A DNA stretch of 64,000 nt from Microcoleus sp. FACHB-68 (GTDB taxonomy: Bacteria; Cyanobacteriota; Cyanobacteriia; Cyanobacteriales; Oscillatoriaceae), in assembly GCF_014695715.1 (NCBI RefSeq), contig NZ_JACJOT010000017.1, positions 248,001 to 312,000 of the forward strand, given 5' to 3'. Below the pieces are notes generated by a model. It was not told where the DNA came from and searched no databases. It saw only the letters and a program-made list of their open reading frames with translations. A program made the position numbers and the translations under genes. Positions 41,041 to 44,924 of this stretch are shown in pieces. Position 1 is the stretch's first letter. The number at the start of each line of letters is the position of its first letter.

Positions 41041-41772
41041 TCAAATTGTTAAGTTATATGAAGCTTCAACGCGTGCGGACGCAGACAGATTTGGGTTAAC
41101 TACACGCAAAAGCTGATTACCGCCGCGCTGAAACTCATAAGCAACTTGCTGAATTTCTAACTCATATCCTTGGCTTTTGAGTTCACGCATTGCCGGCAGC
41201 AACAGTGGGGAAACTTCCCCGGATAGATTCAAAATCGGAAAAATCCGCACCTGGGAAGCAACTCTGCACAATTGGGTAATGGCTTCAATATGAAAAATTT
41301 GAGAAAGATGATCCGAGTAAGTAAATAGCAAATGAGAACACAGCGCTAAATCAAATTCGCCTGTCTTGAAGGGCAAAACCGGCAATTCCCCAAACACATA
41401 GCGTCCTGTCTGCAAACCAGAAGAAAAATCTAACAAAAACTGCTGCATTGCCGCCATTCTCACCTGAGCTAAGTGTGCCGGCGACTGGATATCTTGCCAA
41501 ACGTAGCTATCTCGATTTGCCTCAACTCCCGCCATAATCGCCGGATAAGTTTCCTCAATGCGTCGAGAAATTTCTTCGCCCGTAAACTGATAAATTGGAT
41601 CACAGGAAATTACGCTGTAGCCTTTGCCGGCCATTTCAGCATTAAAACTCGCAGGGCCGGCAGCACAATCGAGAATTTTTAATCGCAGATCATCAGGAGT
41701 TAGGTTAAACATCCTGATGTATTCATCAAGCGATCGCCCCCAAGGAACGACCTTTTCCAGCTTTAATCCCAT
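41041..41772 (-). CDS. SAM-dependent methyltransferase
   Basis: The 243-residue protein has motif I in LKILDCAAGPASFNAEMAGK, the strand-2 acid in YSVISCDPIY and a motif II/III region DLALCSHLLFTYSDHL. The N-terminal LEKVVPWGRSLDEYIRMF is typical of a cyanobacterial subfamily without a proven substrate. ATG 41772 follows AGGAGAAGGTG. It is 75 bp downstream of aroF on the same strand and may be co-transcribed with it, but a link to aromatic biosynthesis is not evident. Confidence 0.82.
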   Translation of the reverse strand: MGLKLEKVVPWGRSLDEYIRMFNLTPDDLRLKILDCAAGPASFNAEMAGKGYSVISCDPIYQFTGEEISRRIEETYPAIMAGVEANRDSYVWQDIQSPAHLAQVRMAAMQQFLLDFSSGLQTGRYVFGELPVLPFKTGEFDLALCSHLLFTYSDHLSQIFHIEAITQLCRVASQVRIFPILNLSGEVSPLLLPAMRELKSQGYELEIQQVAYEFQRGGNQLLRVVNPNLSASARVEASYNLTI

Positions 41773-41847
41773 CACCTTCTCCTGTCGAATGATTCGGGCG
41801 AAAACTTGTCTTGATTTTCAACAAGATTCGCCCCAATCAAGAAATTG

Positions 41848-42705
41848 CTACGCCACCGATAATTGCCGGTGACTTTTGGACGTTGGCACGCGCCGGCCCA
41901 CTGCCGCAGCAATCGGCCTTAAACCGTGAACTAAATCCACCATGTCTTGCAAAGAAAGCGCCTGTCTGGCATCGGAAACCGACTCTTCCGGTTGCGGGTG
42001 ACACTCGATCATCAAGCCATCTGCACCTGCGGCAACTGCTGCTTTTGCCAACGCTGCAACCAATTCCCGCTTGCCGGCGGCATGAGACGGATCAACGATC
42101 ACCGGCAAATGCGTGATCTGCTTCAACGCCACCACTGCTCCCAAATCCAGTACATTTCTGGTGTAATTGTCGAAACTGCGAATCCCGCGTTCGCACAACA
42201 CCACATCCGGGTTGCCGTGGCTGAGGATATATTCTGCCGCCATCACGAACTCTTCAATGGTTGCCGCCAACCCGCGCTTGAGGATCACCGGCTTGCCGGC
42301 ACTCCCCACCGCTTTCAGCAAATCGAAGTTTTGCATATTGCGGCTACCAATTTGCAACATATCCGCGTGTTCCACAATGCCTTCAATTTGGCTGATAGAC
42401 ATCACCTCAGTCACCACCGGCACACCATAGCGCTGGCTAACTGCCGATAAAATATTTAACCCCGCATCTCCCATGCCTTGGAAAGCGTAAGGGGAGGTGC
42501 GGGGTTTGTAGACGCCACCGCGCAAAACCTGAACCGGCGCGTCGGCTAAATGACTGGCCACTTGCTCCATCTGTTCTAAACTTTCGACAGCGCAAGGGCC
42601 ACCAATAATTAAGAGATCGTGGCCTCCAACAGTGGCGTGATCCGAGATACGGATAGCGGTTTGGTGTTCGGTGTGAGACTTGGATACGAGTTTGGCGCTT
42701 AACAT
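41848..42705 (-). CDS. aroF: 3-deoxy-7-phosphoheptulonate synthase (DAHP synthase)
   Basis: The 285-residue enzyme joins phosphoenolpyruvate and erythrose 4-phosphate in the first step of the shikimate pathway. It shows IIGGPCAVESLEQM, the KPRTSPYAFQGMG loop, the metal and substrate residues in LQIGSRNMQN and GKPVILKRGL, and CERGIRSFDNYTRN, VDPSHAAGKR and ECHPQPEES. It is the KDO8P-synthase-like type without an N-terminal ACT or ferredoxin-like domain, so feedback control by that route is not expected. ATG 42705 has AAGGAACG upstream. The preceding leader holds two aromatic leader peptides and two terminators (42738-43011), which indicates transcriptional control by aromatic amino acids. Confidence 0.93.
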   Translation of the reverse strand: MLSAKLVSKSHTEHQTAIRISDHATVGGHDLLIIGGPCAVESLEQMEQVASHLADAPVQVLRGGVYKPRTSPYAFQGMGDAGLNILSAVSQRYGVPVVTEVMSISQIEGIVEHADMLQIGSRNMQNFDLLKAVGSAGKPVILKRGLAATIEEFVMAAEYILSHGNPDVVLCERGIRSFDNYTRNVLDLGAVVALKQITHLPVIVDPSHAAGKRELVAALAKAAVAAGADGLMIECHPQPEESVSDARQALSLQDMVDLVHGLRPIAAAVGRRVPTSKSHRQLSVA

Positions 42706-42737
42706 GGGGTGCGTTCCTTAGAAAAAAATGAGGTTAA

Positions 42738-42771
42738 CAAAAAACCCGGAACCTTTTGAGAGTTCCGGGTT
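42738..42771 (-). terminator. aroF leader terminator 2
   Basis: On the minus strand a perfect 10-bp stem, AACCCGGAAC / GTTCCGGGTT, with a nine-base loop is followed directly by a U tract. It lies about 30 bases before the aroF start, so it can only be useful as an attenuator that is sometimes bypassed. Its 5' arm overlaps the antiterminator partner at 42760-42770. Confidence 0.9.
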
Positions 42772-42809
42772 GAGGCGACAAGTGACATGGCCATACTTAC
42801 CCAGAACTC
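42760..42809 (-). promoter_or_regulatory. aroF antiterminator 2
   Basis: The segment GAGTTCTGGGT (42799-42809), inside the last codons and stop of leader peptide 2, can pair over 11 bp (one U-G) with ACCCGGAACTC (42760-42770), which carries the 5' arm of terminator 2. The two pairings exclude each other. A ribosome that reaches the stop covers the first segment and allows termination; a ribosome stalled at upstream aromatic codons leaves it free. Confidence 0.8.
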
Positions 42810-42862
42810 TGACTGAGCCAAAAGTAAAAACCAAAAAACCAGCTATAGCCTTGAGAAATCAC
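42797..42862 (-). CDS. Aromatic leader peptide 2 (attenuator)
   Basis: A 21-codon frame starts at GTG 42862 with AGGAAAAGG at ideal distance and ends at TAA. Its middle, GYSWFFGFYFW, contains eight aromatic codons (two Tyr, two Trp, four Phe) in the 21-residue peptide. It precedes antiterminator 2 and terminator 2 and is read in the direction of aroF. The composition and placement are those of amino-acid biosynthetic leader peptides, so it should sense charged tRNA-Phe, tRNA-Tyr and tRNA-Trp. Confidence 0.85.
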   Translation of the reverse strand: MISQGYSWFFGFYFWLSQSSG

Positions 42863-42893
42863 TTGTTTTGCCTTTTCCTAAATAGTCCTAAAA

Positions 42894-42924
42894 ACAAAAA
42901 AACCGCAGCGTTTGTTCTGCGGTT
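42894..42924 (-). terminator. aroF leader terminator 1
   Basis: On the minus strand an 8-bp perfect stem, AACCGCAG / CTGCGGTT, with an eight-base loop is followed by a run of seven U residues. It lies after leader peptide 1 and before leader peptide 2. Four bases of its 5' arm (42921-42924) are shared with the antiterminator pairing. Confidence 0.88.
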
Positions 42925-42967
42925 CACCTGGTAGCCATTACGAAACTGGCCTCACTCCAAGTGAACC
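42921..42967 (-). promoter_or_regulatory. aroF antiterminator 1
   Basis: GGTTCACTTGG (42957-42967), covering the last codons of leader peptide 1, can form an 11-bp helix (one G-U) with CCAGGTGAACC (42921-42931). That helix takes up the AACC start of terminator 1. The design is the same as at antiterminator 2: the ribosome position on the leader peptide decides which helix forms. Confidence 0.8.
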
Positions 42968-43011
42968 TGCGTAAACCACCAAAAATAAAAATAAGAGGTG
43001 CCGGTGAACAT
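42952..43011 (-). CDS. Aromatic leader peptide 1 (attenuator)
   Basis: A 19-residue frame (MFTGTSYFYFWWFTQVHLE) starts at ATG 43011 and ends at TGA. Seven consecutive aromatic codons (Tyr-Phe-Tyr-Phe-Trp-Trp-Phe) stand just before the antiterminator segment. There is no clear ribosome-binding site, but the ATG lies about 40 bases from the predicted transcription start. The second, similar device follows within 100 bases. Confidence 0.83.
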   Translation of the reverse strand: MFTGTSYFYFWWFTQVHLE

Positions 43012-43060
43012 TTTTATAACGCGCTGAGGTTGAAGATTGCTTAGATGCCTATGATTCCTG

Positions 43061-43089
43061 AGCTTAACAAAGGGTTCCCACAATGTCAA
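43061..43089 (-). promoter_or_regulatory. Predicted sigma-70-type promoter of the aroF leader
   Basis: TTGACA (43084-43089) and TAAGCT (43061-43066) are spaced by exactly 17 bases on the minus strand. Start of transcription is expected near 43054, giving a leader of about 350 nt before aroF. The -35 box is perfect and the -10 box is weak. Confidence 0.65.
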
Positions 43090-43140
43090 CCCCCAAAAGT
43101 TGAACACCAGCAACCTTGTACGGTGCGTGCCTCACGCAGC

Positions 43141-43668
43141 CTACTCTGACACCTTGCCATCTGGCATCGTCGCACCACTGAAGTTGACAGCACTCAAAAC
43201 CGTCCCCGTGAAATTCGCACCCGTCAAATTCGCACCACTTAAGTTAGCAGCACTCATATCTGCATTCGTCAAATTGGCATTACTCAAATCGCTACTCACC
43301 ATATTTGCCACCATCAACAAGGCTTTTTGCAGATCCGCACCAGTTAGATTCGCATTCGTCAAATTCGTCGCATTTAAATCGGCACCTGTTAAGTTAGCAC
43401 CGCTCAAATTAGCAGCATTCAGTTTAGCTGCAAACAAAGCGGCACCGCTCAAGTTAGCACCACTCAAGTTGGCAGCACTCAGCTTGGCAGCACGCAAATC
43501 AGCACCCTTCAAGTCGGCACCCCTCAAGTCAGCATTACTCAAGTCGCACTTCGCACATTGTTTCGTTTCGAGTAATGTTTTAACGTCCTCTGGGTTGGCG
43601 GCTTGGGATGGAGTTGCGAGTAAGAGGGAAAGCAGACTGACAGCGAGCGTTAAAATCCTGAGTTTCAT
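43141..43668 (-). CDS. Pentapeptide-repeat protein, exported
   Basis: The 175-residue protein starts with a signal peptide (KLRILTLAVSLLSLLLATPS, cut near QAAN) followed by LLETKQCAKCDLSNADLRGA and about 23 pentapeptides. The CxxC pair with its LLET lead is shared with the protein at 29871-30596. GTG 43674 also opens the frame, but ATG 43668 with AAGGTGTGAAG upstream is preferred; the paralogue has the same GTGAAGATG context. It lies upstream of the aroF leader on the same strand, and the aroF promoter lies between them. Function is unknown; location should be periplasmic or lumenal. Confidence 0.83.
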   Translation of the reverse strand: MKLRILTLAVSLLSLLLATPSQAANPEDVKTLLETKQCAKCDLSNADLRGADLKGADLRAAKLSAANLSGANLSGAALFAAKLNAANLSGANLTGADLNATNLTNANLTGADLQKALLMVANMVSSDLSNANLTNADMSAANLSGANLTGANFTGTVLSAVNFSGATMPDGKVSE

Positions 43669-43811
43669 CTTCACACCTTTAGACTTTTCTTAATTAGAGG
43701 AAATAGCGATTCTTTATCTTCGCAATTGAGTGCTAACGTCGTGTAAAACTCAAGCGATGTTCCTGTGCCGGCTACCTTCCTGAGTCAGAATGGAATAACT
43801 TTATCTCTTGC

Positions 43812-44924
43812 TTAAGTGGGAATTGCCGGACGCCAGCCATTTTGAAAGCGCAGCCAATCTTCTTTCAAGGCTTTGGGTGCGGGGTTATTGGTATCGTAAA
43901 CCACAATCACATTGGTGAGATTCCGTCCAGGTTGCAGCAAAATTTCTCCATTATAAGCTAAAGCTTCCGATGCGCCTCCATCCAAATTCATCGCCTCACT
44001 ACAGCCAATCGCTTTCATAATTTCCGCTTCTTCTTTCAAAGAAAGACTCGCCAAAAAACTAATTAAAAATAGCTTTTGTCGGCTCTCAGAAAACCCTAGT
44101 GCCGTGCGATATCCAACATCTAAAACATGAGGATCTGTGAAGCCTTCTAACTTCGGTGAAAGCCAGATTTTCCCCTGTTTCAATAATCTTGGCCCACAAG
44201 TTAGAGAAAACCAGTGCTGGTTCCACTCTGGTTTGCCTTCTGCGCGTGCAGTGATCATTTCGGGTTCATTGTTGGCTTTAATCCCCAAAGTCGTGCCAAA
44301 GTTTTCCCACCGGCTGTATTTGACAAACTTGCCGCCGGCTACCATATTCCCCATCACACGCTTCTGATCATCCTTACTAAAAAAGGTGCCATTCACAATC
44401 ACAGCCGCCTGATGCCGGCTCACAAACTTCTCAAAAGCTTCATCGCCGGTTGAAAGCGCTGCCGTGTTAGCAGCTTTCGCATCATTCGCTAAACCAATTG
44501 TCAAGAAAGTTTCAGGATCATTCAAATCAATGGTTGTTTGATAAAAAGAGACGTCATTGATAGTATTTTGGATAACTTCTACAGGTTTTCCTTTCTTCGT
44601 TGAAGCCGTAAATTTAGGAGTGGGAGAAGGTTTAACCGGCTTCTGAGTTGGACTTGCTTTAGGAACGGGTGCATTCGGTAAAGGTTTCTGAGTTGGACTT
44701 GTTTGAGAAATTGGTGCATTGGGTAAAGGCTTTTCTGCAACATTTTCTTGGTACGCCTCTAAAGCTTTTTCCTTTAAATAACCCAAAAATGTGATAAAAT
44801 TAGAACGGTTTTGAGATACCGAAAAATACTGGTGTAAAAATCTAGCCGTTGCGATTCCGATAATAAACAAAAAGGAACGGCGCATCAAAGTCGCGCACCC
44901 ATCGGGTTCTTTTGTTTTAGGCAT
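43812..44924 (-). CDS. Phosphodiester glycosidase (NAGPA domain) protein
   Basis: The protein of about 370 residues has an N-terminal membrane anchor (RRSFLFIIGIATARFLHQYF), a Pro/Ser/Thr-rich linker with two near-repeats (PLPNAPISQTSPTQK and PLPNAPVPKASPTQK) and a C-terminal NAGPA domain. That domain includes AAVIVNGTFFSKDD, DVGYRTALGFSES and CSEAMNLDGGASEALAYNG. The family is related to the enzyme that uncovers mannose 6-phosphate. Bacterial members act on extracellular phosphodiester-linked sugars. A longer frame starts at 44972, inside a hairpin. ATG 44924 is preferred. It follows the dehydratase gene on the same strand. Confidence 0.82.
   Translation of the reverse strand: MPKTKEPDGCATLMRRSFLFIIGIATARFLHQYFSVSQNRSNFITFLGYLKEKALEAYQENVAEKPLPNAPISQTSPTQKPLPNAPVPKASPTQKPVKPSPTPKFTASTKKGKPVEVIQNTINDVSFYQTTIDLNDPETFLTIGLANDAKAANTAALSTGDEAFEKFVSRHQAAVIVNGTFFSKDDQKRVMGNMVAGGKFVKYSRWENFGTTLGIKANNEPEMITARAEGKPEWNQHWFSLTCGPRLLKQGKIWLSPKLEGFTDPHVLDVGYRTALGFSESRQKLFLISFLASLSLKEEAEIMKAIGCSEAMNLDGGASEALAYNGEILLQPGRNLTNVIVVYDTNNPAPKALKEDWLRFQNGWRPAIPT

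Follow-up and report, generated by a model that had tools for sequence, protein, structure and literature searches.

In the leader RNA of aroF in Microcoleus sp. FACHB-68, two complete attenuators of transcription, each of the ribosome-mediated kind, very probably follow one another, and both would read codons for Phe, Tyr and Trp. The locus lies in a window of 64,000 nucleotides (contig NZ_JACJOT010000017.1 of assembly GCF_014695715.1, positions 248,001 to 312,000), whose own numbering is used throughout. An initial annotation had proposed a doubled aromatic attenuator at this position, and the codon make-up of the leaders, the antiterminators and the codon-to-arm spacing fit tandem ribosome-mediated attenuation. 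This reading is built on coding constraint in the leaders, terminators, antiterminators, fixed spacing, a promoter-like site and conservation, all of which are observed in the sequence and by comparison with relatives. The antiterminator helices and the promoter-like site were absent from the initial annotation and were found here.

The controlled gene, aroF (41848..42705, minus strand), specifies a DAHP synthase of 285 residues, which matches the TIGR01361 profile above its cut-off (E 3.1e-108). It is separated by 435 nt from the next gene, and both leader/terminator units sit in this gap, where the minus-strand order is promoter-like site, leader 1, terminator 1, leader 2, terminator 2 and aroF. 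Leader frame 1 (MFTGTSYFYFWWFTQVHLE, 42952..43011, minus strand) runs from ATG to TGA and has no clear Shine-Dalgarno sequence. Leader frame 2 (MISQGYSWFFGFYFWLSQSSG, 42797..42862, minus strand) has a GTG start preceded by AGGAAAAGG and a TAA stop. Both frames lie where the initial annotation had placed them, with seven consecutive aromatic codons in leader 1 (Y-F-Y-F-W-W-F) and eight aromatic residues among the 21 of leader 2, as it had described. Its statement that each leader contains all three aromatic residues is true of the window, and it also holds for the last 22 codons in 99 of the 102 loci in which both leaders could be read. Just 3′ of aroF, a 244-residue frame (41041-41775, minus strand) has no Pfam or NCBIfam match.

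Chance is not a sensible explanation for the leader pair, given that both units are present at 105 of 114 non-identical aroF loci. When the 435-nt region was shuffled with its dinucleotide composition preserved, one frame with at least seven aromatic codons in 11 arose in 96 of 5000 shuffles, two such frames arose in 2, and seven aromatic codons in a row arose in none. A chance origin is rejected on these shuffles together with conservation.

Comparison of the leaders indicates that the coded residues are selected. Leader 1 has the core Y-F-Y-F-W with exchange of F and Y, and Trp is present in 85 of 87 distinct leader DNAs, while the core of leader 2 over 96 distinct leader DNAs is W-F-Y-G-F-Y-F-W. 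In core codons of the F/Y type, C occurs at the first base in 0 of 354 (leader 1) and 4 of 486 (leader 2) and at the third base in 60 of 354 and 116 of 486; the rarity of C at base 1 relative to base 3 is expected if the coded residue is under selection. The codon tables of leader 2 include that of one locus, L129, read in the wrong frame. The share of Phe codons that are TTT is 0.87 in leader 1 and 0.86 in leader 2, taken over the window and its relatives, versus 0.29 in aroF. For the distance between the last in-frame TGG and the antiterminator arm, leader 1 has exactly 11 nt (100 of 104 sequences) and leader 2 has 12 nt (101 of 109). More variation (F, Y, R, H, Q or C) is seen in leader 1 at the codon that follows Trp, which sits at the margin of the predicted sensing zone. 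By both sequence and coding constraint, the frames thus show the clustering of end-product codons in a short frame that belongs to ribosome-mediated attenuators.

Some leaders depart from the common form. Three leaders (leader 1 in L014 and in L079, leader 2 in L007) stop early, immediately ahead of the arm, and retain the RNA arms. In L131 the arm is in another frame than usual, and leader 2 of L129 has a different core, NFYFWFFYWF, with no stop codon near the arm. Among the 96 distinct DNAs, leader 2 also has Gly between its aromatic blocks in 66 (Ser in 16), and after them Pro in 67 and Arg in 69; these conserved residues have no role in the simple model. The same is true of a mostly conserved GTCATG-like stretch after the leader 2 stop; residues and stretch together occupy 42781-42862 in the window and recur in relatives.

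In both units an intrinsic terminator lies between the leader frame and the gene, as the initial annotation had stated. Terminator 1 (42890..42925, minus strand) consists of GAACCGCAG, a loop and CTGCGGTTT (42925-42900) with a T-rich tail, and terminator 2 (42739..42771, minus strand) of AACCCGGAACT, a loop and GGTTCCGGGTT (42771-42743) with a T tract; the T tracts lie at about 42890-42899 and 42739-42742, respectively. Both were identified by a terminator scan, covariation and folding. The hairpins of the window have energies of -13.5 and -17.3 kcal/mol for units 1 and 2, and 4 and 1 of 200 shuffles were as stable. In classical attenuators, the terminator and the antiterminator share an arm. 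Antiterminator 1 is an 11-bp helix in which GGTTCACTTGG, the last codons of leader 1 (42957..42967), pairs with CCAGGTGAACC (42921..42931), of which GAACC is common to terminator 1; arm comparison, RNAalifold and covariation all identify it. Antiterminator 2, identified by covariation, is a 10-bp helix between AGTTCTGGGT (42799..42808), formed by the last codons of leader 2 plus base 1 of the stop codon, and ACCCGGAACT (42761..42770), which is the 5′ arm of terminator 2. All four arms are on the minus strand. Because the antiterminator 3′ arms overlap the 5′ arms of the terminators, formation of either antiterminator precludes its own terminator. Both units therefore have a mutually exclusive antiterminator that uses the terminator 5′ arm, for which covariation is strong in unit 1 and weaker in unit 2.

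Covariation was assessed in alignments of 37 of 104 unit 1 sequences and 42 of 109 unit 2 sequences with similarity below 0.88; L007, L129 and L131 had been removed from 45 picks for unit 2, and L129, L130 and L131 were excluded from its arm statistics. For antiterminator 1, 94.8% of cells are paired and 34 cells carry a double change, where shuffles average 10.7 and none of 500 reaches that number; pairing falls to 27-53% when the helix is slid by 1-3 columns, and RNAalifold predicts the helix unprompted from the 37 sequences. Terminator 2 is similarly well supported, with 95.7% of cells paired and 22 double-change cells versus 5.1 in shuffles (0 of 500 as high). Antiterminator 2 has 92.4% of cells paired, a double change in 14 cells (3.3 in shuffles, with none of 500 reaching 14) and a covariation score of 0.212 versus at most 0.108 for slid versions. 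It is unexceptional on two of five measures, namely the number of pairs with a double change (36 of 500 shuffles as high) and the number of pair types (213 of 500); slid by +2 and +3 columns it has 12 and 11 double-change cells versus 14 unslid, and from the unit 2 alignment RNAalifold predicts the terminator but not the antiterminator. Terminator 1 is 99.4% paired with only 6 double-change cells and a covariation score of 0.077 versus 0.089 when slid by -1; its pair types and slid scores are unexceptional because it hardly varies. Sliding any of the four helices lowers pairing to 14-61%. Covariation is thus strong for antiterminator 1 and terminator 2 and weaker for antiterminator 2.

Simulated folding in the presence of a ribosome provides a prediction of where each unit would switch. 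The folded RNA ended just before the terminator 3′ arm, and the ribosome was given an edge 13 nt away from base 1 of its A-site codon; L012 was excluded from the unit 1 set and L129 and L131 from the unit 2 set, here and in the full-length folds below. With the A-site 8-14 codons before the stop, at the Trp codon or upstream of it, 102-103 of 103 loci form antiterminator 1; at 7 codons 84 of 103 do so, and at 0-6 codons 0-1 of 103. Antiterminator 2 forms in 104-106 of 107 loci at 6-14 codons before the stop and in 0-1 of 107 at 0-5, and the last aromatic codon of leader 2 is 7 codons before its stop. Footprint edges of 10-16 nt shift the switch point by about one codon either way. In both units the predicted switch therefore lies no more than about one codon from where the aromatic run ends, and in the computed geometry a ribosome at the sensor codons would free the arm while one at the stop codon would cover it.

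Minimum-energy folds of the full-length RNA give a different picture for the two units. In unit 1 the antiterminator is obtained in 70-102 of 103 loci at 8-16 codons before the stop (72-102 at 8-12 codons) and the terminator in 95-103 of 103 at 0-7 codons; in the window, the terminator is again the minimum-energy fold of this unit at 13 or more codons before the stop. In unit 2 the antiterminator is obtained in only 15-51 of 107 loci at 7-14 codons, and for the window each of the 17 ribosome positions tried gives the terminator as the fold of lowest energy. Across loci, antiterminator 2 can be enforced at a median cost of 0.8-2.1 kcal/mol. Final-state energies thus favour the terminator in unit 2 of the window, which counts against the model, and antitermination in unit 2 would have to depend on the order of folding during transcription.

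A promoter-like site precedes leader 1 in the window, where TTGACA (43089-43084) is followed after 17 nt by TAAGCT (43066-43061; whole site 43061..43089, minus strand, by motif match). The initial annotation had noted that transcription starting downstream of the leaders would speak against attenuation; at the sequence level, a putative promoter stands before leader 1 in most loci. When the best TTGACA-N16-18-TAnnnT match was taken within 120 nt before leader 1, it reached at least 9 of 12 positions in 81 of 101 distinct loci, versus 13% of mononucleotide shuffles, and among the 99 loci scoring at least 8 the -10 element ends 38-50 nt before the leader 1 start codon in 75. A separate, generic promoter scan does not list the site of the window because its -10 hexamer is poor, TAAGCT matching at only three of six positions.

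From these features we infer leader translation, ribosome stalling, termination efficiency, the physiological response from charged tRNA to read-through, and a reason for the doubling, in the following way. RNA polymerase would start about 40 nt before leader 1. With Phe-, Tyr- and Trp-tRNAs charged, the ribosome would reach the end of leader 1 and cover the 5′ arm of antiterminator 1, upon which terminator 1 would fold and transcription stop. If any of the three charged tRNAs ran short, the ribosome would stall in the aromatic run and leave the arm free, the antiterminator would take the terminator 5′ arm, and the polymerase would proceed to unit 2. There the same decision would be repeated, and aroF would be made only if both units permitted passage. 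Because the amino acids sensed are the same in both units, doubling should bring in no further signal; the effects of two terminations should instead be multiplied, which could provide a lower leak and a steeper response. No separate 1:2 pause hairpin was identified in the leader, and the predicted default without translation is thus read-through during transcription.

Both units are widely conserved with this AroF. Relatives were collected from 60 genomes (the window's own included), from 80 of 391 named loci that encode relatives and from 23 loci of a phylum sample, giving 122 loci with an AroF of this clade; removal of 8 with an identical last 350 nt left 114, among which near-copies remain. 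Unit 1 is found in 106 of the 114, with 9-11 of its 11 arm pairs, and unit 2 in 110, of which 109 were found by script with 7-10 of 10 arm pairs and one, L082, was counted by hand (leader MLAKNWFYGFYFFYARGSP, other arms, model score 29 bits). Beside the loci with both units, six have one unit, and in three (L066, L075 and L097, with less than 115 nt) the upstream sequence is too short. The aromatic codons and the terminators are kept among relatives, which was the check that the initial annotation had proposed. Carriers include records named Nostoc, Anabaena, Calothrix, Scytonema, Trichodesmium, Microcoleus, Lyngbya, Laspinema, Oculatella and Leptolyngbya, and the codons, arms and spacing are conserved in genomes of 11 families, four of them outside the order of the window.

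The single-unit loci, 6 of the 111 with enough upstream sequence, indicate that one unit can do. L015, L018, L019, L044 and L131 have unit 2 only, L044 being judged on 403 nt, and L017 has unit 1 only. A tree built from 92 AroF sequences and 4 paralogs, from which L131 is absent, puts them in three places: L015; L044; and L017 together with L018 and L019 (support 93/89). Because the single-unit loci are scattered, and L017 and its neighbors L018 and L019 lack different units, the pair looks ancestral, with either unit occasionally lost. The idea that one unit arose recently as a copy of the other was considered and not kept, as unit 2 reaches only 18-20 bits with model 1 (E 0.07-0.21); the aromatic codons alone may suffice to explain this weak score.

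Covariance models of both units, run on 292 genomes of the phylum, point to the same tight association, several of the scanned genomes having also supplied sequences to the models. The scan passed 12-13 first-look candidates per genome through strict filters, and further weak sites are possible. The unit 1 model matched 29 genomes once each, namely 28 of the 29 that carry this AroF (E < 1e-110) and one other, G084; the unit 2 model matched 28 genomes once each, all within the 29. Both units were matched in 27 of the 29, with G181 lacking unit 1 and G034 lacking unit 2, and the matches adjoin the listed aroF positions.

Three other explanations of this arrangement have to be weighed against codon-sensing attenuators in series. 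The leaders could be arrest peptides, in which the ribosome is stalled by the nascent chain and a ligand, such as an aromatic amino acid in free form, rather than by a shortage of charged tRNA; TnaC provides a precedent for such arrest. The Gly, Pro and Arg residues that leader 2 keeps in distinct DNAs would suit a selected peptide, but F and Y, and occasionally W, interchange at core positions, early stops precede the arm in L014, L079 and L007 with the arms kept, the arm of L131 is in a different frame and the core of L129 is another sequence altogether. These natural variants alter the peptide and retain the aromatic codons and arms, which favours codon sensing, and the exact identity of the peptide looks less important than aromatic codons plus an arm. 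We consider arrest peptides unlikely. It is highly improbable that sensing lies outside the frames and that an RNA-binding protein or a metabolite-binding RNA controls the terminators and antiterminators: an RNA with two states could equally serve a riboswitch or a TRAP-like protein, but the aromatic codons are under coding constraint, their spacing to the arm is fixed, and neither positions 41800-43900 of the window nor four relatives gave an Rfam match at gathering score. That search included the T-box and the other Rfam families, and identity with a known Rfam family is rejected on its result.

A further alternative accepts attenuation and holds that only one unit functions, the other being a relic or a back-up of no consequence. 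The single-unit loci described above are in its favour, as is the prediction that unit 2 of the window would terminate regardless of the ribosome if final stability decided the outcome. Against it, the codons, arms and spacing of both units are kept over the whole collection, and the positions of L015 and L044, apart from each other, and of L017, grouped with L018 and L019 but without the other unit, point to occasional loss of either unit. We therefore regard a single working unit as quite unlikely and prefer two functional attenuators.

The units appear to be specific to this aroF. A second DAHP synthase in the genome is of the AroFGH type (TIGR00034, 486 bits) and the type II family PF01474 has no match there, so the attenuated enzyme is one of two DAHP synthases found. 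About 500-600 nt upstream of the second DAHP synthase, of three trpE-family matches (one above the cut-off) and of pheA were inspected and scanned with both models, and neither unit was found at any of these genes. For these genes, use of the same units is rejected, as only loosely aromatic frames occur there (L135, L138 and L140, with five aromatic residues in the last 22, and no unit). Likewise, 11 loci of paralogous long DAHP synthases have no unit; under a looser filter, aromatic frames occur at two of the 11 (L023 and L027), again with no unit. Over all these paralogous and other aromatic loci, the models gave no more than one chance-level match (L028, E 0.64).

Ribosome-mediated attenuation is a known kind of control, and E. 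coli trp, pheA and pheST are governed by charged tRNA through a short leader rich in end-product codons, as described in the available part of PMC11802643. The cyanobacterial leaders resemble these in their end-product codons and in the arm common to terminator and antiterminator; unlike the E. coli systems, with one leader and one amino acid, there are two leaders, each with Phe, Tyr and Trp. A counterpart by gene is aroR-aroF of Corynebacterium glutamicum, in which, according to the accessible portions of PMC4046766 and PMC11802643, a leader with Phe-Tyr-Phe precedes a DAHP synthase gene whose transcription rises when Phe is limiting. It is likewise an aromatic leader peptide before a DAHP synthase gene, but by that description a single one, with Phe-Tyr-Phe only and in another phylum. 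In the sections available of PMC8632094, the uORFC-13-1 motif of Acholeplasma is a predicted Phe-coding leader frame beside a terminator upstream of aroF, and attenuation of E. coli aroF is said to have been hypothesised once; the motif shares an aromatic-coding frame and a terminator before aroF with the units described here, but is given there as one frame with at least one Phe codon, from Acholeplasma and environmental sequences only.

Doubling also has precedents of other sorts. The Salmonella mgtCBR leader RNA contains two leader frames, each an attenuator, and is called a singular example in the text available from PMC3641672, which also cites the tandem riboswitches of B. clausii metE, with two terminators and different signals. 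mgtCBR is alike in having two attenuator leader frames in one leader RNA; as described in that text, it differs in sensing different signals (ATP and proline) through stem-loops unlike intrinsic terminators, whereas each unit here has an intrinsic terminator and both hold codons for the same three amino acids, in the window and in 99 of 102 loci. In ermB, two leader peptides, ErmBL and ErmBL2, likewise serve one signal (PMC8274638, in the part available), but that system is translational attenuation answering an antibiotic, and here two transcription terminators would answer amino acids.

In cyanobacteria, a 2016 paper found no reliable data for attenuation, and the amino-acid attenuators covered in the available text of a 2013 survey of Rfam motifs were the His, Leu, Thr and Trp leaders only. 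Full-text searches of open-licence papers in PubMed Central gave no account of a leader-peptide attenuator before cyanobacterial aroF, though an earlier description is possible, and the available portions of PMC7693272 and PMC7997468 contain nothing on attenuation of cyanobacterial DAHP synthase. Within the papers searched, the doubled, same-signal, three-amino-acid arrangement and its cyanobacterial host appear new. On balance, we think it probable that this is the first clear case of amino-acid attenuation in cyanobacteria and the first of two complete leader-peptide attenuators of the same specificity, each with its own terminator, in series, forming an old, clade-wide OR-sensor of Phe, Tyr and Trp starvation. 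If so, one entry enzyme of the shikimate pathway would be under a sharpened sensor of this kind, and two stacked sensors of the same signal would constitute a simple natural experiment in sharpening a genetic switch. The conserved codons, arms and spacing across 11 families make the question directly testable, and aroF, as the entry step to aromatic compounds, is a target of metabolic engineering.

Three further records carry traces of the arrangement. In G084 (L134, 2170-1805, minus strand), leader 1 and its arms run, after a deletion, into a fragment of aroF, which by its sequence is a decayed aroF with an attenuator relic. The L082 record, titled Candidatus Obscuribacter, has an AroF of this clade preceded by unit 1 and by a unit 2 that diverges from the others, and would be either a transfer or a misplaced contig. 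In G095 (C1:3292628-3293473), a match to aroF contains two in-frame stops, and both attenuator models match upstream of it.
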